Below the pieces are notes generated by a model. That model was not told the origin of the DNA and did no database searches. It saw only the letters and a list, made by a program, of their open reading frames with translations. This document shows positions 5,980 to 16,305 of a stretch of DNA of 64,000 nucleotides, in pieces. The DNA is from Comamonadaceae bacterium (GTDB lineage Bacteria > Pseudomonadota > Gammaproteobacteria > Burkholderiales > Burkholderiaceae_C). The stretch lies in contig CANJWZ010000004.1 of assembly GCA_947478725.1 (NCBI GenBank), forward strand, positions 62,001 to 126,000, in the 5' to 3' direction. The position numbers and the translations under genes were made by a program. Each line of letters opens with the position of its first letter. Position 1 is the first letter of the stretch.

Positions 5980-6023
5980 TGTCTATATTAATTGACAGTT
6001 AACGTTGACAATTAATATTTACA
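5980..6023. promoter_or_regulatory. Tandem PpsR/CrtJ-type operator upstream of crtE
   Basis: A perfect TGT-N12-ACA palindrome lies at 5980-5997. A second with one mismatch (TGA-N12-ACA) lies at 6006-6023, exactly 8 bp after the first. Pairs of TGT-N12-ACA sites 8 bp apart are the known cooperative binding arrangement of the aerobic photosynthesis repressor CrtJ/PpsR. A TTGACA hexamer (5992-5997) overlaps site 1, with ATATTT 17 bp further on as a weak -10 candidate, so binding would block the promoter. No ppsR gene is in the window. Confidence 0.75.
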
Positions 6024-6039
6024 CTCAACTGGAGCACCT

Positions 6040-6960
6040 ATGAAGGCCATCACACACATTGAACAATCCTTGGCTGCCGCACTGGCTCTCGGCGAGGCGC
6101 CGGGTTGCCCGCCCAAGCTGGCCAACGCGGTACGACATGCTGTGTTTCCGGGTGGGGCGCGTATCCGGCCTCAGCTGTGCCTGGCGGTGGCGCATGCATG
6201 TGGCAACGACGATCCCTTGCTGGCCGATGCCGCAGCAGTGGCCATTGAACTGCTGCATTGCGCCTCACTGGTGCATGACGACTTGCCGTGTTTTGACGAT
6301 GCCCCAACACGCCGTGGTCGTGCTTCGGTGCATTGGGCGTATGGCGAAAGTCTGGCGGTTCTGGCAGGTGACGCCCTGATCGTGCTGGCTTTCCAGACCC
6401 TTGGCCTGGCAGGTGGTCAGTCCCCCAAACGCATGGCCGAAGTGCTTGGCGTGGTCGCCAAAGGTGTCGGTATGCCCTTTGGTATTGTGGCGGGGCAGGC
6501 CTGGGAAAGCGAGTCACGGGTGTCGCTCACGGCGTATCAGCGGGCCAAGACAGGCGCCCTTTTTGTCGCGGCAACGGCTGGCGGTGCTTTGGCCGCGGGC
6601 GCAGACCCCAAGCCCTGGGTGGCGCTGGGCGAGTGGCTCGGTGAGGCCTATCAGGTGGCCGACGATATTCGCGATGTGATGGCAGACCCAAGCTTGCTGG
6701 GCAAGCCGGTGGGCCAGGACCTTGCACTGGGCCGCCCCAGTTCTGCGATTGACCTCGGGCTGGGTGGCGCCATCGCTTACTTCGAAAAACTGGTGCAGTC
6801 GGCCATCGATTCGGTGCCTGAATGCACCAGCCGCGAGGCGATGCGCCAGCTGGTGCGCCAGGAGTCAGAGCGTCTGGTGCCACGCGAGGCCTGCGACAAG
6901 TTCAGGCATGTGCAGGCTGTGCAGGGTGATACGTCCTCTGTCAAAGGTGTTGCTGCCTGA
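6040..6960 (+). CDS. crtE: Geranylgeranyl diphosphate synthase CrtE
   Basis: Short-chain polyprenyl diphosphate synthase. It supplies geranylgeranyl diphosphate for carotenoids and the bacteriochlorophyll tail. The 306-residue product carries the first aspartate-rich motif HDDLPCFDDAPTRRG (from about 79), the upstream GGARIRPQL, and the second aspartate motif DDIRD (near 208). It is the first gene of a plus-strand operon and its stop overlaps the crtF start (TGATG). Position next to crtF and tandem PpsR sites favours CrtE over a housekeeping farnesyl diphosphate synthase. Confidence 0.92.
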   Translation: MKAITHIEQSLAAALALGEAPGCPPKLANAVRHAVFPGGARIRPQLCLAVAHACGNDDPLLADAAAVAIELLHCASLVHDDLPCFDDAPTRRGRASVHWAYGESLAVLAGDALIVLAFQTLGLAGGQSPKRMAEVLGVVAKGVGMPFGIVAGQAWESESRVSLTAYQRAKTGALFVAATAGGALAAGADPKPWVALGEWLGEAYQVADDIRDVMADPSLLGKPVGQDLALGRPSSAIDLGLGGAIAYFEKLVQSAIDSVPECTSREAMRQLVRQESERLVPREACDKFRHVQAVQGDTSSVKGVAA

Positions 6961-8156
6961 TGCGAACACTCGACTTGGCCAAGCCGCTGGACGGGGGGCA
7001 TAGCAGGCCTGCCTGGCGTGATCGGCTGGATGCGTGGATGGACAGAAAGCTCACCGACCCCGGTTTTTCACGTTGGGCTGCCGCAAATGTGTTGACCCGC
7101 TGGATCACACGCAGACGCGCGCAGCAGGTGTTTGATGTGATGGCTGGTTTTGTGTATTCGCAAGTGCTGTTGGCGTGTGTGCGTCTGCGCATTCTTGAGC
7201 TTGTCAATGAGTCGCCACGCACGCTGGACGAGCTGGCACACATTTGCCATGTGCCCGCATCGGCCTTGCAGCGTTTGATCAATTCTGCTGTCGCGCTCCG
7301 GTTGCTGTCGCTGCGCGGGCAGGGCCGCTACGGCTTGGGAGCGCTCGGTGCACCCGTTGCTGGTCATCCGGGCATACGCGCCATGATTGAGCACCACGCT
7401 GTGCTGTACCACGACATGCAAGACCCGGTAGCCCTGCTGCGTGACCAGGTCAGTGACGGACAAATGATGGCGTACTGGCCGTATGTTGAAACCCATATTC
7501 AGGACCTTGGTACCAGTGGGCAGCCGCAACAAGCCCCCAGAGCCTGGGAACAGGAAAAAGTGTCGCGTTATTCGCAGCTCATGTCCGCGTCGCAGCCCTT
7601 TGTGGTGGACGAGGTGTTGGCGACCTACTCATTTGCCAGGCACCAATGCGTGCTGGATGTGGGTGGCGGGCAGGGTACGTTTGTCAGTCGTTTGGCGGGG
7701 CACGCAACGCACCTCAAGCTCAAGTTGTTTGACTTGCCCCAAGTCGCTGCGCTGGCGCAGGACAACTTCAGGAAGAAATCTCTTTCTGACCGGGCAGATG
7801 CTTTTGGTGGTGATTTTTTAAAGGATTCGCTGCCTGAAGGCGCGGACCTGGTCACGCTGATACGTGTTGCGCACGACCATCCCGATGCACACGTCAACAT
7901 CATCTTGCGCGCCATCTTCAAGGCTTTGCCTGCGGGCGGCACCTTGCTGCTGACCGAGCCAATGGCCCAGGCCAGCGACGAGGCGCCGCTTGGCGATGCT
8001 TATTTCCATTTCTATCTTTTGGCGATGGGCTCGGGCCGCTTGCGCACCGTCAAAGAGTTGAGCGACATGATCATGAACGCGGGCTTTGACCGCGTTGACG
8101 TCATGGCCAACGCCATGCCTTTGCAGACGCGAATTCTTGTGGCGCGCAAAAAATAA
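6960..8156 (+). CDS. crtF: Hydroxyneurosporene O-methyltransferase CrtF
   Basis: SAM-dependent methyltransferase that converts the tertiary hydroxyl of hydroxyneurosporene/demethylspheroidene to a methoxy group in spheroidene synthesis. The 398-residue product has a winged-helix N-terminal half (LDELAHICHVPASALQRL near 89-106) and a Rossmann SAM-binding motif VLDVGGGQGT at 231-240, followed by the catalytic region ending LLTEP. This is the standard CrtF architecture and length. It is coupled to crtE; in other purple bacteria bchC follows, but here only a remnant does. Confidence 0.93.
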   Translation: MRTLDLAKPLDGGHSRPAWRDRLDAWMDRKLTDPGFSRWAAANVLTRWITRRRAQQVFDVMAGFVYSQVLLACVRLRILELVNESPRTLDELAHICHVPASALQRLINSAVALRLLSLRGQGRYGLGALGAPVAGHPGIRAMIEHHAVLYHDMQDPVALLRDQVSDGQMMAYWPYVETHIQDLGTSGQPQQAPRAWEQEKVSRYSQLMSASQPFVVDEVLATYSFARHQCVLDVGGGQGTFVSRLAGHATHLKLKLFDLPQVAALAQDNFRKKSLSDRADAFGGDFLKDSLPEGADLVTLIRVAHDHPDAHVNIILRAIFKALPAGGTLLLTEPMAQASDEAPLGDAYFHFYLLAMGSGRLRTVKELSDMIMNAGFDRVDVMANAMPLQTRILVARKK

Positions 8157-8183: not shown

Positions 8184-8227
8184 CGTCAATATTAGTTGAC
8201 ACTTTTAAACGTAAACGTAAACTGACA
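8184..8227. promoter_or_regulatory. Tandem PpsR/CrtJ-like palindromes before the bchC remnant
   Basis: Two CGT-N12-ACA near-palindromes lie at 8184-8201 and 8210-8227, again separated by exactly 8 bp. Each has one mismatch to TGT-N12-ACA. The second ends 2 bp before the old bchC start codon. The geometry matches the operator before crtE, so this is likely the PpsR-controlled bch promoter. It would still drive bchXYZ and possibly puf although bchC itself is gone. Confidence 0.6.
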
Positions 8228-8229
8228 TC

Positions 8230-8438
8230 ATGCAAGCCGAAGCGATCGTATTTACAAGTCCAAAAGACCTGAAAGTCCAGATTCTGGAATTGGCTGGCTT
8301 TTGCAAACAAGCACTCAGTTTTTCCTTTGCACCAGCCTTTGTGGGCGATAAGCCCTCGAATGCAGCCAGCACCTACGAATCGCTGTTGGCGACGCAGTCT
8401 GCTTAAAAATGATTTTGGATTGGAAGCACCGCACATGA
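8230..8438 (+). pseudogene. bchC: bchC remnant (two internal deletions plus a frameshift)
   Basis: BchC is the NAD-dependent 3-hydroxyethyl bacteriochlorophyllide a dehydrogenase, normally about 310 residues. Here the ATG at 8230 starts MQAEAIVFTSPKDLKVQ, like the BchC N-terminus. About 20 codons in, it jumps to AGFCKQALSFSFAPAFV, which matches a segment near residue 230 of BchC (LAGFYSAPISFAFPPAF in Rhodobacter, from memory). It then skips roughly 40 residues to KPSNAASTYESLL. A one-base deletion near 8389 shifts the frame to GDAVCLKMILDWKHRT, the conserved BchC C-terminus, whose TGA (8436-8438) overlaps the bchX ATG. In the original frame there is a TAA at 8404. Confidence 0.9.
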
Positions 8439-9424
8439 ACCCGACGACCATCATGATGAAAGACCTCCGCGCAGAGGCGGCTATTGAGCCAACGCCAATG
8501 AAAACGGGCGAGGCCAACAAGGAAACGCAAATCATCGCCATTTATGGCAAAGGCGGCATTGGCAAAAGCTTCACGCTTGCCAACCTCAGCTACATGATGG
8601 CCCAGCAGGGCAAGAAAGTGTTGCTCATTGGCTGTGACCCGAAGAGTGACACCACCAGCCTGTTGTTTGGTGGCCGGGCTTGCCCCACCATCATTGAAAC
8701 GTCGTCGAAGAAAAAACTGGCTGGCGAGGCTGTTGCAATTGGCGATGTGTGCTTCAAGCGTGACGGTGTTTATGCCATGGAGCTCGGTGGTCCTGAAGTC
8801 GGACGCGGTTGCGGTGGTCGCGGCATCATCCATGGCTTCGAGCTGCTTGAAAAGCTCGGTTTTCACGACTGGGGTTTTGACTACGTGCTGCTCGACTTTT
8901 TGGGCGACGTGGTGTGTGGCGGTTTCGGCCTCCCGATTGCCAGAGACATGTGCCAAAAAGTCATCGTGGTGGCCAGCAACGACCTGCAGTCGCTTTATGT
9001 GGCCAACAACGTTTGCTCAGCCGTTGAGTACTTCCGCAAGCTGGGCGGCAACGTCGGCGTCGCGGGCATGGTGATCAACCGTGACGACGGTACTGGCGAG
9101 GCATCGGCTTTCGCTGAAAAAGTCGGCATTCCTGTGCTGTCAATCATTCCCGCCAATGATGACATCCGCCGCAAAAGCGCCAGCTACGAAATCATTGGTC
9201 GGCCCGACTCAGTCTGGGGCCCGATGTTTGCGCAGCTCGCAGAAAACGTGGGCGCGTCGCAGCCGATTCGTCCCAAGCCCATGACGCAAGACCAATTGCT
9301 GGGTTTGTTCTCGGCAGATGTGGTGGGCCGCAATGTGGTGCTGGAGCCAGCCACGCAGTTTGATATGTGCGGCAAAAAAGAAACTGTCAAAGAAACGCTC
9401 GAAGTCGTTTACGACGAAGTCTGA
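8435..9424 (+). CDS. bchX: Chlorophyllide a reductase iron protein BchX
   Basis: NifH-like ATPase that delivers electrons to BchYZ, reducing ring B of chlorophyllide a to the bacteriochlorin. I choose the ATG at 8435 (MNPTTIMMKD) because it overlaps the conserved bchC stop as ATGA. The 330-residue product has the P-loop YGKGGIGKS (about 37-45), the GCDPKSDTT motif and the two 4Fe-4S ligand cysteines in GRGCGGRG and DVVCGGFG. Length and motifs are intact. Confidence 0.96.
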   Translation: MNPTTIMMKDLRAEAAIEPTPMKTGEANKETQIIAIYGKGGIGKSFTLANLSYMMAQQGKKVLLIGCDPKSDTTSLLFGGRACPTIIETSSKKKLAGEAVAIGDVCFKRDGVYAMELGGPEVGRGCGGRGIIHGFELLEKLGFHDWGFDYVLLDFLGDVVCGGFGLPIARDMCQKVIVVASNDLQSLYVANNVCSAVEYFRKLGGNVGVAGMVINRDDGTGEASAFAEKVGIPVLSIIPANDDIRRKSASYEIIGRPDSVWGPMFAQLAENVGASQPIRPKPMTQDQLLGLFSADVVGRNVVLEPATQFDMCGKKETVKETLEVVYDEV

Positions 9425-9438
9425 ACTGAAGAAAAGTC

Positions 9439-10998
9439 ATGAGCACAGTCATCCCGATCATTCCGATGCCCACGGCGCCGATCAGCACGGCCCTTGAAGG
9501 CGACGGTATGGGCTGCCACAGCGGCGGTGAGGCCATGCTGGCAGCGGCCAAGTCCGCAGGCAAGTCTGAAATTCTCGAGCAATACGCCAAGGACTACCCG
9601 AAAAACCCCAAAGCGGGCCCGCATGACCAACCCCAAAGCATGTGCCCTGCGTTTGGTTCTTTGCGCGTAGGTTTGCGCATGCGCCGCACCGCCACCATTT
9701 TGTCGGGCTCCGCCTGCTGCGTGTATGGACTGACCTTTACCTCGCATTTTTACGGTGCCAAGCGCAGCGTCGGCTATGTGCCGTTCAACTCTGAGTCTCT
9801 GGTCACCGGCAAGCTGTTTGAAGACATCCGCGAAGCGGTGTTTCAGCAGGCTGACCCCGCTTTGTACGACTCGATCGTGATCATCAATTTGTGCGTGCCT
9901 ACCGCCAGCGGTGTGCCTTTGCAAATTTTGCCAAAAGAAATCAACGGCGTCCGCATCATTGGTATTGACGTGCCAGGCTTTGGGGTGCCAACCCATGCTG
10001 AAGCCAAAGATGTGCTGGCTGGCGCGATGCTGAAATACGCGCGTACCGAGGCTTTGGCTGGACCAGTCCAAGCGCCGCGTAACGGCAAGTCTGACAAGCC
10101 GACCATCACGCTGCTGGGTGAAATGTTTCCAGCAGACCCGGTCATCATCGGCATGATGCTCGAACCCATGGGTTTGTCGGCAGGCCCCTCTGTACCAACG
10201 CGTGAATGGCGCGAGCTGTATGCCGCACTCGACTGCGCAGCGGTTGCCGCCATTCACCCTTTTTACACCGCCAGCGTTCGTGAGTTTGATGCGGCAGGTC
10301 GTGCCATTGTTGGCTCTGCACCGGTGGGTTATGAGGGTACGGAGGCCTGGCTGCAAGCGATTGGCCAAGCCGCCAATATTGCACAAAGCGACATTGACAT
10401 CGCCAAAAATAAATTCTTGCCTGCGATCAAAGGGGTGCTTTCGAAAACGCCCATCAAGGGCCGTATCACGCTGAGTGGCTACGAAGGCTCTGAGCTTTTG
10501 GTCGGTAGATTGCTGATCGAAAGCGGCGCTGACTTGCGCTATGTTGGCACGGCCTGCCCACGCACTGCATGGAACGAAGCCGATGTTCAGTGGTTGGAAA
10601 GCAAAGGCGTGATGGTGCAGTTCCGCGCATCGCTGGAGCAAGACTTGGCCGCAGTGCATGAATTCAAACCTGACCTGGCAATTGGCACCACGCCTGTAGT
10701 TCAAGCAGCCAAGGAGTTAACAATTCCGTCGCTGTATTTCACCAATCTGATTTCTGCCCGTCCCTTGATGGGCCCGGCAGGCGCTGGTTCCTTGGCGACT
10801 GTGGTGAATTCGGCCATTGGCAACAAAGCACGCTTTGAGGAAATGAAAGATTTCTTCGGCTCAACCGGTACCGGGCATGCGACAGGTGTGTGGGAGGCCG
10901 CACAAGGGATTCCTCAAGACCGGCCAGAGTTCAAGGCTGAGCAACGCCGACTTGCTGTGAAGATGGCGAAAAAGCGCAAAGCAGAGGAAATGATCTGA
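9439..10998 (+). CDS. bchY: Chlorophyllide a reductase subunit BchY
   Basis: NifD-like subunit of chlorophyllide a oxidoreductase; with BchZ it forms the catalytic heterotetramer reduced by BchX. The 519-residue product contains conserved cysteines for the shared cluster (GCHSGGEAM near 31, [13 protein letters not shown] near 71, SACCVYGL near 91). An ATG with AAG-rich upstream sequence starts it 14 bp after bchX. It overlaps bchZ (stop/start TGATG). No disruption is visible. A long antisense frame over it is a shadow. Confidence 0.95.
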
Positions 10999-12476
10999 TG
11001 TTGGTTTTAGATCACGATCGCGCTGGCGGCTATTGGGGCGCGGTGTATGTGTTCACCGCCATCAAAGGCTTGCAGGTGGTCATTGACGGGCCAGTGGGCT
11101 GCGAGAACCTGCCCGTCACATCGGTGCTGCATTACACCGATGCACTGCCCCCGCACGAGTTGCCGATTGTGGTGACCGGTTTGGCTGAAGAGCAACTGGG
11201 CCGTGAAGGCACCGAAGGCTCCATGAGGCGAGCTCATGCAGCGCTTGACCCCGACTTGCCTTCTGTTGTGGTGACAGGCTCCATCGCCGAAATGATTGGC
11301 GGCGGCGTGACCCCGGCAGGAACCAACATCCAGCGGTTTTTACCTCGCACGATCGATGAGGACCAGTGGCAGTGCGCCAACCGTGCCATGTTCTGGCTCT
11401 GGTCCGAATACGGCCTCAAGGAGGTGCCTGCGCGCAAGCCCGCGTCTGAGCGCGCCCCAGGTGAAAAGCCCCGAGTCAACATCATTGGTCCGAGCTACGG
11501 CACGTTCAACTGCCCCAGCGACTTGGCAGAAATCCGCCGCTTGGTGCAAGGCATTGGTGCCGAGATCAATATGGTGTTTCCACTGGGCAGTCACTTGGCC
11601 GACGTCTCGCGCCTGGTGGAGGCCGACGTGAACATCTGCATGTACCGCGAGTTTGGCCGCATGCTGTGCGAGGCGCTGGAGCGGCCTTACCTTCAGGCGC
11701 CGATTGGGCTGCACAGCACGACCAAGTTCTTGCGCAAGTTGGGAGAGCTGCTCGGGCTAGATCCTGAGCCCTTCATTGAACGCGAAAAGCACACCACGAT
11801 CAAACCCATCTGGGACTTGTGGCGCTCTGTGACGCAAGATTTTTTTGGCACCGCCAGCTTTGCGGTGGTGGCCAATGAAACCTACACCCGTGGCCTTCGC
11901 CACTTCCTAGAAGAAGAAATGGGTTTGCCCTGCAGCTTTGCCGTGGCCCGCTGCCCCGGTGCAAAAACCGACAACGCAGAAGTGCGTCGGCTGACCACCA
12001 CGAAAACACCTTTGGTGATGTATGGCAGTTACAACGAGCGCATGTACCTAGCCGAATGTGGTGGCGGCGGCATGATGAAAGCAACTTTCATCCCTGCCTC
12101 CTTTCCGCTGCCGATCATTCGACGTCACACCGGCACGCCATTCATGGGTTATGCCGGCGCAACTTATGTGATTCAAGAGTTTTGCAATGCGTTGTTTGAT
12201 GCCTTGTTTCATATCTTGCCGCTGGGCACTGACTTGGACAAGATTGACTCGACACCAAGCCGCGTCAACGCAGACAAGCCCATCAGCTGGAGCACCGAGG
12301 CGCATGCGCTGCTTGAAGAATTGATTGAGGCCGAGCCGGTACTGGTTCGCATTTCAGCGGCCAAACAAATGCGTGATCGTGCTGAGCGCGACGCTCGCCA
12401 ATCTGGCAAATCAAGTGTTGAGCTTGATCGTCTTTCAGAATTGTTTGGGCATTCAAAAGCGGGAGCGGCTGCATGA
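10998..12476 (+). CDS. bchZ: Chlorophyllide a reductase subunit BchZ
   Basis: NifK-like subunit of chlorophyllide a oxidoreductase. The 492-residue product begins [21 protein letters not shown], has the cluster region [19 protein letters not shown], and later [18 protein letters not shown]. The C-terminus has the extra helical region ([27 protein letters not shown]) typical of BchZ. Overlap with bchY indicates translational coupling. It is the last bch gene here; puf follows after about 145 bp. Confidence 0.95.
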
Positions 12477-12621: not shown

Positions 12622-12765
12622 ATGAATCAAAGTACTAACCCTACCGGGTTGACTGACTCAGAGTGCCAGGAATTTCACAGCTACTACATCCAAGGTTATG
12701 TGATGTGGGGTGTGGGCGCGATGATCGCCCACAGCTTGGTGTGGATCTGGCGTCCCTGGTTCTAA
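12622..12765 (+). CDS. pufB: Light-harvesting 1 beta polypeptide PufB
   Basis: Single-span antenna protein that binds bacteriochlorophyll in the LH1 ring. The true start is the ATG at 12622 (MNQSTNPTGLTDSECQEF), preceded by GTGAGG. The 47-residue product has the beta-type motif LTDSECQEFHSYYIQG, the ligand histidine in IAHSLVW, and the C-terminal WRPWF characteristic of LH1 beta chains. First gene of the puf operon. Confidence 0.95.
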   Translation: MNQSTNPTGLTDSECQEFHSYYIQGYVMWGVGAMIAHSLVWIWRPWF

Positions 12766-12787: not shown

Positions 12788-13012
12788 ATGGCTTACCTAC
12801 ATGCTCAGCACGCTGACAGCGACGTTCAAGCTCCCCTCAAGGAGTTTCGCTACCTGTACGTGGTGCTTTTCTGCGTCTTTTTATTGCTTGCAATGATGGG
12901 CCAGATGTTGTTCATGGATTGGCGTAACTGGCTGCCAGGGGCAGAGGGAACCAGACCCATGTTGGGCAGCGTGAAGTCGGCTGTTTACACCGTGATTTCC
13001 CAACTCAGCTAA
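12788..13012 (+). CDS. Unrecognised 74-residue single-span protein between pufB and pufA
   Basis: I do not recognise this gene. The 74-residue product has a polar N-terminus ending in KEFR, one hydrophobic span at about 23-42 (YLYVVLFCVFLLLAMMGQML), then MDWRNWLPGAEG and an amphipathic end SVKSAVYTVISQL. A strong GGAG site lies 6-9 bases before the ATG, and spacing to pufB and pufA is tight, so it is very likely translated within puf. By the positive-inside rule the N-terminus is cytoplasmic, as in LH1 chains. The NWLPGAEG stretch loosely resembles the FNWLEGA end of LH1 alpha, but the bacteriochlorophyll-ligand histidine is absent; a glutamine lies near that place. PufX- or gamma-like roles are possible but only guesses. 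Confidence 0.75.
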   Translation: MAYLHAQHADSDVQAPLKEFRYLYVVLFCVFLLLAMMGQMLFMDWRNWLPGAEGTRPMLGSVKSAVYTVISQLS

Positions 13013-13028
13013 CACTAAAGGAAATATT

Positions 13029-13220
13029 ATGTGGCGTATGTGGCGTATGGTAGATCCCCGCAAGGCGATCATCCTGACAGGCTTAATGATAGCCTTCATT
13101 TCGACGAGCATTCATCTGATTCAAGTCAGTGGTGATCGTTACAACATCAACACGTGGCATCCTGACACCGTCAAGGCCGCGAAAGCCGCCAACAATGCGG
13201 CGATGCCTCCGTCGAAGTAA
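13029..13220 (+). CDS. pufA: Light-harvesting 1 alpha polypeptide PufA
   Basis: LH1 alpha antenna chain. The 63-residue product begins with the classic MWRMWRMVDPRKAI, has one span, the ligand histidine in SIHLIQVS, and the post-membrane DRYNINTW. A C-terminal tail of about 20 residues rich in Lys and Ala follows. AAAGGA precedes the ATG. It is separated from pufB by the unrecognised small gene, which is unusual because pufB and pufA normally adjoin. Confidence 0.93.
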   Translation: MWRMWRMVDPRKAIILTGLMIAFISTSIHLIQVSGDRYNINTWHPDTVKAAKAANNAAMPPSK

Positions 13221-13357: not shown

Positions 13358-14185
13358 ATGGCCATGTTGAGTTTTGAAAGAAAGTACCGCGTACGCGGCG
13401 GCACCCTGATTGGGGGTGACTTGTTCGACTTTTGGGTCGGCCCGTTTTACGTTGGCTTTTTCGGAATTACCACCGCCTTTTTTGCGGTTCTAGGCACTGT
13501 CATGATCATGTGGGGCGCTGCCATGGGCCCAACCTGGAATCCTTGGCAAATCAATATCGCGCCGCCAGACATTTCAAATGGACTGAAGATGGCGCCGATG
13601 ATGGCTGGAGGCCTTTGGCAAATCATCACCGTTTGCGCCCTGGGGGCCTTTGTCTCCTGGGCACTCCGCGAGGTCGAAATTTGTCGCAAACTGGGAATGG
13701 GCTTGCATGTCCCGATAGCATTCGGTTTTGCCATCTTTGCGTACTTCACCTTGCAGGTCATCCGACCGGTGCTGATGGGTTCCTGGGGTCACGCTTTTCC
13801 TTACGGCATTTATAGCCACTTGGACTGGGTCAGCAACACCGGCTATCAGTACCTGCACTTTCATTACAACCCGGCGCACATGATTGCGGCGACACTGTTT
13901 TTTGCCACCACCTTGTCACTGTCTTTGCATGGTGCGCTGGTCTTGTCGGCGACCAATCCGGGCAATGGACAAGTCGTCAAATCACCTGAGCATGAAGACA
14001 CATTTTTCCGTGACGTGATCGGCTACTCGGTGGGCACGCTGGGTATTCACCGTCTGGGGTTGTTCCTGGCGCTGGCAGCAGTCTGGTTTTCTGCCCTTTG
14101 CATCGTCATCAGCGGGCCATTCTGGACGCGCGGCTGGCCTGAATGGTGGGGCTGGTGGCTGAACATGCCCATCTGGGGTCATTGA
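13358..14185 (+). CDS. pufL: Photosynthetic reaction centre L subunit PufL
   Basis: Core membrane subunit of the type II reaction centre, binding the special pair, accessory pigments and quinones. The 275-residue product starts [15 protein letters not shown] after a GAGGAG ribosome-binding site. The expected histidines are present at 154 and 174 (bacteriochlorophyll ligands) and 191 and 231 (non-heme iron ligands), one residue offset from Rhodobacter numbering. Five membrane spans; apparently intact. Confidence 0.97.
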
Positions 14186-14218: not shown

Positions 14219-15193
14219 ATGGCTGAATATCAAAATCTTTTTACCACCGTGCAGCCCGTCGGGCCTGCATCCGCAGGGGTTCCGCTGCCGCCCGGGGACT
14301 CCGAGCGCATCGGCACACCATTTTTTCTACACCTGGCTGGTCGTTTGGGCAACGCCCAAATTGGCCCCGTCTATCTGGGGTGGCTGGGCTTGGCATCGCT
14401 GCTGTTTGGCACGCTGGCCTTCAACATCATTGGCTTCAATATGTTGGCCCAGGTGGACTGGAATCCATTGCAAATGATTCGCCAGCTGTTTTGGTTGGCG
14501 CTTGACCCGCCGGCGCCCAAATATGGTTTGAGTATTGCGCCACTCAATGACGGGGGGTGGTGGAATATTGCGGGGTTGTTTCTGACCGTGTCACTGATTT
14601 TGTGGTGGGCACGCATGTACCGCCGCGCGCGTCAGCTTGGCTTGGGCACGCATGTGGCTTGGGCGTTTGCTGCTGCTATATGGCTTTATTTGGTGGTTGG
14701 ATTTTTCCGCCCTGTGCTGATGGGCAGCTGGTCTGAATCCGTGCCCTTCGGTATCTTTCCGCACCTGGACTGGACAGCTGCCTTGTCCTTGCGTTATGGC
14801 AATCTCTTCTACAACCCGTTCCATGCGCTATCGATTGTGTTTTTGTATGGCTCTGTCTTGCTGTTTGCCATGCACGGCGCCACCATTTTGGCGGTAGGCC
14901 GTTACGGTGGTGAGCGTGAGATTGAACAGATCATTGACCGCGGTACCGCATCGGAGCGCGCCGGCCTGTTCTGGCGCTGGACCATGGGCTTCAACGCATC
15001 GATGGAGTCTATTCACAGGTGGGCCTGGTGGTTTGCAGTGCTCTGTCCGCTGGTCGGTGGTATCGGGATCTTGCTCACCGGCACGGTGGTTGACAACTGG
15101 TACCTGTGGTCTGTTAAACACAATGTGGTGCCAAGTTACCCCGCCATGTGGGTGCCCACCATTGACCCAGCTTTGATTGGAGTAAAACCATGA
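14219..15193 (+). CDS. pufM: Photosynthetic reaction centre M subunit PufM
   Basis: Partner of PufL in the reaction centre. The 324-residue product shows the typical N-terminal [12 protein letters not shown], the conserved [11 protein letters not shown] segment, FYNPFHALS with a pigment-ligand histidine, [17 protein letters not shown] with an iron-ligand histidine and glutamate, and [10 protein letters not shown]. It overlaps pufC by 4 bp (ATGA). Full length and undisturbed. Confidence 0.97.
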
Positions 15194-16305
15194 TCATGCG
15201 TACCACCATCAAACTGCTTCTGGCAAGCACTGCAGCCTTGCTGCTGGCAGCTTGTGAAAAGCCGCCGATTGCGGTGTCTCAAACCGGTTTTCGCGGCACG
15301 GGCATGGAGCAGGTGTACAACCCGCGCACCCTGGCAACCCAGGCCTCACTCAACAAGGCGCCTGAAGTGTCGGCCGCCGTGGAAGATGTGCCAGGTGGTC
15401 CTAAAGCTGGCGCGATTTACCAAAACGTCAAGGTGCTGGGCGACCTGAGTGTGGGAGAGTTTGCCCGCACCATGAGTGCCATCACCGAATGGGTCGCGCC
15501 CCAGCAGGGTTGCAATTACTGCCACGTGGCCGGTAACTTTGCCGACGACAGCGTGTACACCAAAGTGGTGGCGCGCAAGATGTTGCAGATGACGCAAAAA
15601 GTCAACTCCGGCTGGAAACAGCACGTGGCTGAAACCGGCGTGACCTGCTACACCTGCCACCGCGGCAACAACATTCCCAAAGAGATCTGGTTTGCACCTC
15701 AGCCTCAAAAATCTGCCGGTGGCAGCCTGGGGAATGATTTCGGCCAAAACCGGGCCGCCAAGTCGGTCGGTCTGTCGTCGTTGCCGTATGACCCTTTCAC
15801 CCCATACTTCCTGGACAACAAGCCCATTCGCGTCAATGGCAACCAGGCTTTGGCCATGACGGGAGCCGCCGCCAACCGCAGTTCCATCAAGCAGGCTGAA
15901 CACACGTATGGCACGATGATTCACTGGTCTGAGGCGCTGGGCGTGAACTGCACGTACTGCCACAACACACAGGCTTTTGCAGAGTGGGGTGCCAATGCAA
16001 CGCCGCAACGCGCCACTGCTTGGTACGGCATTCGGATGGCACGTGAGTTGAACAACGAGTACATGGTGCCGCTGACCAGCGTGTTTCCAGCCAATCGGCT
16101 GGGCCCCACGGGTGACGTCGCCAAAGCCAACTGCGCCACTTGCCACCAGGGTGCTTATAAGCCTCTGTATGGTGCGGCCATGGCCAAGCATTACCCTGCG
16201 ATGTATGCGCCGGTGAAAGCGCCTGATGCTCCTGCCGCTTTACCCGTCGCTGATGCTGGGCAAGCGGTGCCGGTTGCTGGTAAGGTTGAGGTTTCAGCCA
16301 AGTAA
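15190..16305 (+). CDS. pufC: Reaction-centre tetraheme cytochrome c subunit PufC
   Basis: Periplasmic cytochrome that re-reduces the photo-oxidised special pair. The 371-residue product is a lipoprotein (lipobox LLAAC, Cys22) with four CxxCH heme sites at 108-112, 153-157, 254-258 and 315-319. A proline/alanine-rich tail of about 30 residues ends it. An alternative ATG lies two codons in. It is coupled to pufM. The ccm operon at the left of this window would mature its hemes. Confidence 0.96.

Follow-up and report, generated by a model that had tools for sequence, protein, structure and literature searches.

The bchC gene of a proteobacterial photosynthesis superoperon has decayed here to a short relic, and an intact bchC lies on another contig of the same genome. 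The window (the whole analysed stretch of 64,000 nucleotides, on contig C4) belongs to a Comamonadaceae genome, G000, of 3.99 Mb and 99% completeness. Very probably a bchC-bciA pair was imported, the native bchC decayed and the old bchC promoter was kept; the relic itself is best explained as the remains of the native, vertically inherited gene. An earlier note on the window had described the relic. That it is common to three genomes, that the intact gene sits in a foreign-looking pair with bciA, and that the promoter outlived its gene are additions to that description.

The genes of the superoperon all lie on the plus strand, in the order crtE, crtF, bchC relic, bchX, bchY, bchZ, pufB, pufA, pufL, pufM, pufC, crtD, crtC (Table 1). 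Open reading frames were found for crtE, crtF, bchXYZ, pufLMC, crtD and crtC, with crtE, crtF and crtC scoring under the NCBIfam cut-offs, and comparison of the three relic genomes placed bchX and crtF under strong constraint. Gene order, orientation and the position of bchXYZ and puf downstream are those of proteobacterial crtF-bchCXYZ-puf clusters, crtF-bchCXYZ being present in all ten clusters analysed in one survey (PMC3176799); here, however, bchC is a pseudogene. The blastn pieces and the neighbouring ORFs thus bear out the earlier description of a 209-bp remnant in an otherwise intact superoperon.

Table 1. Features of the superoperon segment carrying the bchC relic (window coordinates)
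Feature	Position	Strand	Basis or remark
PpsR-type palindrome TGT-N12-ACA upstream of crtE	5980..5997	+	pattern match
crtE, intact	6040..6960	+	ORF; prenyl synthase families under equivalog cut-offs; adjoins crtF in relatives
crtF (O-methyltransferase), intact	6960..8156	+	ORF; BchU/CrtF-type TIGR02716 under cut-off; 97% to L030
Upper PpsR-type site, CGT-N12-ACA	8184..8201	+	common to L110; in L030 with one inner base changed
Lower PpsR-type site, CGT-N12-ACA	8210..8227	+	8 bp downstream of upper site; TGT in intact L031 and L017 (alignment)
bchC pseudogene	8230..8438	+	N-terminal piece 8230-8292, middle 8291-8348, C-terminal to 8438; blastn and BchC matches
58-codon open frame in relic	8230..8406	+	from bchC start codon to a TAA entered via the frameshift; no detectable constraint
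bchX, intact	8435..9424	+	TIGR02016 411.6 bits, cut-off 331.2 (scan from 8450); start overlaps relic stop (ATGA)
bchY, intact	9439..10998	+	TIGR02015 698.9 bits, cut-off 425.15
bchZ, intact	10998..12476	+	TIGR02014 762 bits, cut-off 529
pufB (LH1 beta)	12622..12765	+	PF00556
pufA (LH1 alpha)	13029..13220	+	PF00556 slightly below gathering score
pufL, intact	13358..14185	+	TIGR01157
pufM, intact	14219..15193	+	TIGR01115
pufC, intact	15190..16305	+	NF040706

The structure of the relic, which blastn and protein comparison placed between the intact crtF and bchX, was resolved by comparison with L031, a locus from a Polaromonas sp. MAG (also numbered L010, in G012) that has an intact bchC in place. 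A blastn search with positions 8216-8449 returned three collinear matches, 8216-8292, 8291-8348 and 8386-8449, with identities of 83, 79 and 84% and E-values of 1e-19, 6e-11 and 6e-17, respectively; the relic thus shows collinear homology to an in-place bchC at the orthologous position. Compared with a small set of 98 BchC rows, the protein pieces each matched on their own (E 7e-6 for the N-terminal, 1e-8 for the middle and 5e-9 for the C-terminal piece, which is read in a second frame). The alignment to BchC of relatives proposed in the earlier note therefore agreed with its claim that N-terminal, middle and C-terminal BchC motifs follow one another in order.

Compared with the L031 gene (936 bp including the stop), the 209-bp relic lacks 727 bp. 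The first deletion comprises 618 bp, exactly 206 codons, in frame; the flanking matches share 2 bp where they meet. The second deletion and the frameshift amount to a net loss of 109 bp. When the translation was read by hand, the second deletion covered ~36 codons, in frame; from about 8352 the relic runs on in the C-terminal region, staying in frame until one T is missing from a TTT codon at about 8386-8387. The two internal deletions and the 1-bp frameshift near 8389 predicted from the letters alone are accordingly present. The relic begins with the ATG at 8230 and ends with the TGA at 8436-8438, which lies over the bchX ATG (8435-8437); as had been noticed, this ATGA junction survives, because the last codons of the relic overlap the bchX start.

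The same relic was found in three genomes of the genus: the window genome, G015 (locus L110) and that of L030, a locus that recurs as L112 in G038 and L113 in G121. It aligns end to end with L110 (93%) and with L030 (85%), and by eye the same T is absent from all three. The closest relatives with an intact in-place gene, G068 and G012, share 97-99% bchX identity.

Among 80 named loci selected by bchX similarity, 73 could be judged, with bchC in place in 68 and absent from 5; of 23 further loci, 19 were judged and three lacked it. As L112 repeats L030 and L010 repeats L031, there are seven distinct bchC-less loci, and all seven are in genomes with bchC elsewhere. These counts do not represent independent events, because all three relic genomes belong to a single lineage and several of the ectopic rows are closely related. 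When genomes of the order were drawn evenly (399 in all), BchC was detected at E 1e-100 or better in 31; where the locus was available (30 genomes), crtF and bchX flanked bchC in 28, bchX only in one (L199), and the remaining one was the window genome's own gene.

The promoter region of the lost gene has been retained. The bchC promoter of Rhodobacter capsulatus is described as carrying two TGT-N12-ACA palindromes, at positions -47 to -30 and -21 to -4 (PMC5362033). Both promoters have two palindromes, and the published positions imply the same 8-bp gap, but in the window each palindrome is CGT-N12-ACA and bchX is the first gene downstream that is intact. The arrangement is also like that of the native crtI sites of Rubrivivax gelatinosus, (TGa-N12-ACA)-N8-(cGT-N12-ACA), in its 8-bp gap and CGT half-site (PMC4452267); those sites belong to another gene, and binding was measured there, whereas the likeness here is one of sequence pattern only. 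A PpsR gene is present in the window genome alongside this tandem with CGT in both sites, as identified by pattern match.

These sites are typical of bchC in its usual place. TGT-N12-ACA occurred within 160 bp upstream of 68 of the 85 in-place genes (5.1 expected from dinucleotide shuffles), and a tandem NGT-N12-ACA, exactly 8 bp apart, at 55 of the 85 (0.03 expected); 'upstream' is counted as 160 bp from the first codon in the alignment, which is not in every case the start codon. The 85 derive from 87 in-place rows, two of which were dropped for want of upstream DNA, and include L092, where BchX and CrtE flank the gene and CrtF was not found. In the same interval neither the single palindrome nor the tandem was present at any of 11 relocated bchCs, three of which form one close group. 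The tandem is kept upstream of bchX in five of the seven bchC-less loci (the window, L110, L058, L038 and L030); L108 has a single TGT-N12-ACA without the tandem, and no PpsR-type site was found in L063. Both sites are CGT in the three relic genomes and in none of the 55 in-place tandems, 23 of which have one site that deviates from TGT; in the window, the lower site has lost its TGT half. Weaker PpsR binding at the relic promoter is a reasonable prediction, because in Rubrivivax gelatinosus PpsR bound more strongly once the degenerate crtI sites had been given TGT halves (PMC4452267). The old bchC promoter probably still drives bchXYZ-puf: it would begin the bchXYZ-puf transcript, and the ATGA junction would couple expression to bchX.

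It could be argued that the relic itself has been kept as a working element, either as a 58-aa leader peptide or as regulatory DNA in the first bchC codons, that tunes bchXYZ-puf. In each of the three genomes its frame stays open almost throughout (the stop in L110 comes two codons sooner), the sole indel among the relics is of three bases, and in R. capsulatus the AerR-CrtJ border extends to +58, binding having been tested on DNA reaching into the bchC coding region (PMC5362033). However, pN was not significantly lower than pS in the three genome pairs (0.062/0.127, 0.187/0.236 and 0.174/0.168; Fisher p 0.18, 0.50 and 1.0; 57 codons only). Between the window and L030, 48 of 61 aligned positions agree in the N-terminal coding piece and 64 of 73 in the promoter, which gives the coding piece no higher conservation than the promoter. 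Inspection by eye showed just a short N-terminal remainder in L058 and nothing of it in L038. Such a role is unlikely, and we regard the relic as a decayed gene lying behind a retained promoter.

When the window genome was searched for BchC, only one of four matches exceeded the TIGR01202 cut-off, an intact protein encoded at C19:63827-64762 (397.4 bits for the full protein, cut-off 291.25). Of the possibilities raised in the earlier note, an intact bchC elsewhere was thus found, and with it no other dehydrogenase is needed as a replacement. The C19 BchC keeps all 48 columns that are invariant in 86 in-place rows, and departs at four of the 100 columns conserved there at 95% or more. For the ectopic genes the three genome pairs gave pN/pS values of 0.012/0.117, 0.012/0.093 and 0.011/0.119, a ratio of about 0.1, indicating that the C19 bchC is under purifying selection. 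We infer that this copy supplies 3-hydroxyethyl-bacteriochlorophyllide a dehydrogenase. A search by sequence for a solved BchC structure gave distant alcohol-dehydrogenase-type chains at best.

The C19 gene overlaps a BciA-like 8-vinyl reductase gene, and the pair lies behind an IclR-type regulator among catabolic-type genes, flanked by iclR and OYE genes. The ectopic bchC-bciA pair is present in all three relic genomes, with 96.9% BchC identity to the window genome's own copy. The order CobW-type, IclR, bchC, bciA recurs in G015, where an AAA-domain protein and not OYE lies beyond bciA, and IclR, bchC, bciA, OYE recurs in G038. In G023 the amidohydrolase, CobW-type and IclR genes stand in the same order, with a PEP-mutase-type gene instead of bchC behind IclR. 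By eye, an inverted repeat lies between iclR and the relocated bchC (L005 9731-9818), partly conserved in G038 and G015, and is possibly a terminator or operator.

In a tree of 98 BchC rows, the C19 bchC fell into a group of nine relocated bchCs with moderate support (92/74), in which the G125 gene was nearest to the ectopic copies of the three relic genomes (98/88); the in-place bchCs of G068 and G012 lay elsewhere. The GC3 values of bchC2 (0.82) and bciA (0.83) stand against 0.51-0.72 for 12 other C19 genes (iclR 0.66, OYE 0.54), and the GC step at the pair is visible in the GC profile. The corresponding pair of G125, whose sampled DNA has 67% GC, gave 0.845 and 0.83. Among other relocated bchCs GC3 was 0.75 in G122, 0.67 in G070 and 0.64 in G030, the last two being ordinary values although these genes are in the group of nine. 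The C19 pair was therefore probably acquired, most plausibly by horizontal transfer from a high-GC relative, on the evidence of composition and phylogeny. No plasmid source of the pair was identified, as none of the 11 matching records covered 80% of it.

The competing view of its origin is simple relocation, in which C19 received a copy of the native bchC, or the gene itself, and the original decayed, with no foreign source involved. The ectopic copies do fall inside a mostly Comamonadaceae BchC clade, and the rows otherwise closest to them are in-place genes, in several cases from the same genus. However, forced grouping of the C19 type with the in-place bchCs of G068 and G012, the nearest relatives as judged by bchX, was rejected (p-AU 0.002), and a GC3 of 0.82 lies outside the 0.63-0.76 of 13 other photosynthesis genes. 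At E 1e-3, moreover, blastn with the relic listed in-place genes (L031, L017) and not the C19 gene; among ectopic copies, only L123 was listed (E 4e-4, middle piece). Relocation of this kind is quite improbable, and import is preferred. Under import, the ancestor of the three genomes would have gained a second bchC with bciA next to it, the insertion lying behind an IclR-type regulator elsewhere in its genome. Because the new copy would supply the dehydrogenase, the native gene would have become redundant and decayed via the two deletions and the frameshift. BchC would then be made from C19, with no recognisable PpsR site in the preceding 160 bp. The direction of the transfer and the order of events are as we infer them. 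Between the window and L030, dS differs by locus (bchX 0.33, over window 8450-9421 and L030 6001-6972; crtF 0.16; bchC2 0.10; bciA 0.05); these unequal values suggest recombination between the relic species, which would blur the timing.

The partner gene points to a second replacement. The C19 neighbour of bchC encodes an NmrA-like NAD(P)H-binding domain (PF13460 and PF05368 above cut-off) and has 72% DNA identity to a Rhodobacter sp. CZR27 gene whose annotation goes no further than NAD(P)H-binding protein. No NCBIfam model matched it at cut-off, the name BciA being assigned here, and a structure search returned distant NmrA-type and other reductases at best. BciA uses NADPH, while BciB uses FAD and carries two [4Fe-4S] clusters (PMC4214422). 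G068, G012 and G023 each encode a PF04432 protein (FrhB/FdhB C-terminal) over cut-off, putatively of BciB type (a name also assigned here), and for those of G068 and G012 the F420 dehydrogenase models stayed under cut-off. Both classes were searched for in 16 genomes: a BciA relative (E 1e-50 or better) is present in 12, the BciB type in three, both in none and neither in one (G123), with G015, G030 and G068 being only 85, 70 and 88% complete. The three relic genomes have BciA, and their nearest intact relatives BciB. Five BciA genomes (G013, G040, G070, G126 and G127) keep an in-place bchC, and BciA alone is therefore no predictor of bchC loss.

The bciB gene adjoins a hydrolase gene in G068 and G012. 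This hydrolase gene occurs without bciB in G000 (on C37, 68%) and G038, is also found in G122, and had no match in G015 or G125; a relic of bciB at the old place was not detected, as the hydrolase flanks held no BciB match better than E 0.8. BciA and BciB are described as two unrelated enzymes for one step, both present in Acaryochloris marina (PMC4214422, PMC4836224), whereas here one class appears to replace the other among natural relatives, along with bchC. On present evidence, the imported bchC-bciA pair would also have replaced a BciB-type reductase. A wider proposal, which we offer tentatively as somewhat short of probable, is that the horizontally acquired cassette displaced two unlinked native enzymes at once (the in-place bchC and the BciB-type reductase) and took both late pigment steps off PpsR-type promoters, while the old bchC promoter stays as the bchXYZ-puf promoter with both PpsR sites changed to CGT.

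Two further explanations carry very little weight. An altered pigment in this strain, or a loss of phototrophy under way, which the earlier note had suggested as possibilities in view of one broken pathway gene in the operon, is highly improbable: an intact, conserved bchC lies on C19, bchX and crtF are under strong constraint, and the further pathway genes searched for, bchF, bchN, bchB, bchH, bchL, bchM, bchG and bchP, are present on C16, as is ppsR. A lineage with bchX under constraint is indeed expected to keep a working BchC, because a bchC deletion in R. sphaeroides is reported to prevent phototrophic growth except in rare bchF suppressors (PMC10101016). The assembly is a 79-contig draft, but a collapse of bchC in assembly, which the note had named as a possible refutation, or the binning of a foreign contig is likewise hardly credible, because the same relic and the same gene order at the ectopic bchC recur in two other genomes of the genus, G015 and G038, assembled separately.

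In the open-access literature searched, neither a natural bchC pseudogene nor a second bchC was found to be reported; where absence of bchC came up there, it was in a laboratory mutant. The crtF-bchCXYZ order is broken here, and has probably been broken on more than one occasion among related lineages, always with bchC elsewhere. For annotation, a disrupted bchC within the cluster should not be read as a defective pigment pathway, and a promoter can outlive its gene. The 11 relocated bchCs, without the regulator sites common to in-place genes, offer natural tests of the need for co-regulation of BchC with the superoperon.

Other arrangements were seen among the relatives. Both an in-place and a second, relocated-group bchC are present in G127, G126 and G070 (L057, L060, L018 and L028), the second gene of G126 and G127 lying upstream of crtE; these genomes may represent an intermediate state. 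In G123 (L038, L122) and G124 (L063, L125), bchC is absent between crtF and bchX and present elsewhere; these copies are likely to be independent relocations, because they fall outside the nine-row relocated group. The relocated bchCs of G122 (L169) and G125 (L170) also lie among catabolic-type genes, the former near an old-yellow-enzyme type gene and one that we take to be Bug-like, the latter near genes for acyl-CoA enzymes.

The photosynthesis genes of G000 are distributed over at least three contigs: C4 with crtEF-bchXYZ-puf, C16 with bchF to bchP and ppsR, and C19 with bchC-bciA. Between pufB and pufA, at window positions 12788-13012, lies a 74-aa ORF without a Pfam match, in which a long hydrophobic stretch was recognised by eye. 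Its tblastn relatives occur in 56 loci, mostly at the same place. The ORF may encode a divergent antenna polypeptide, since its match overlaps the pufB match in several loci (e.g. L038, L047 and L063).
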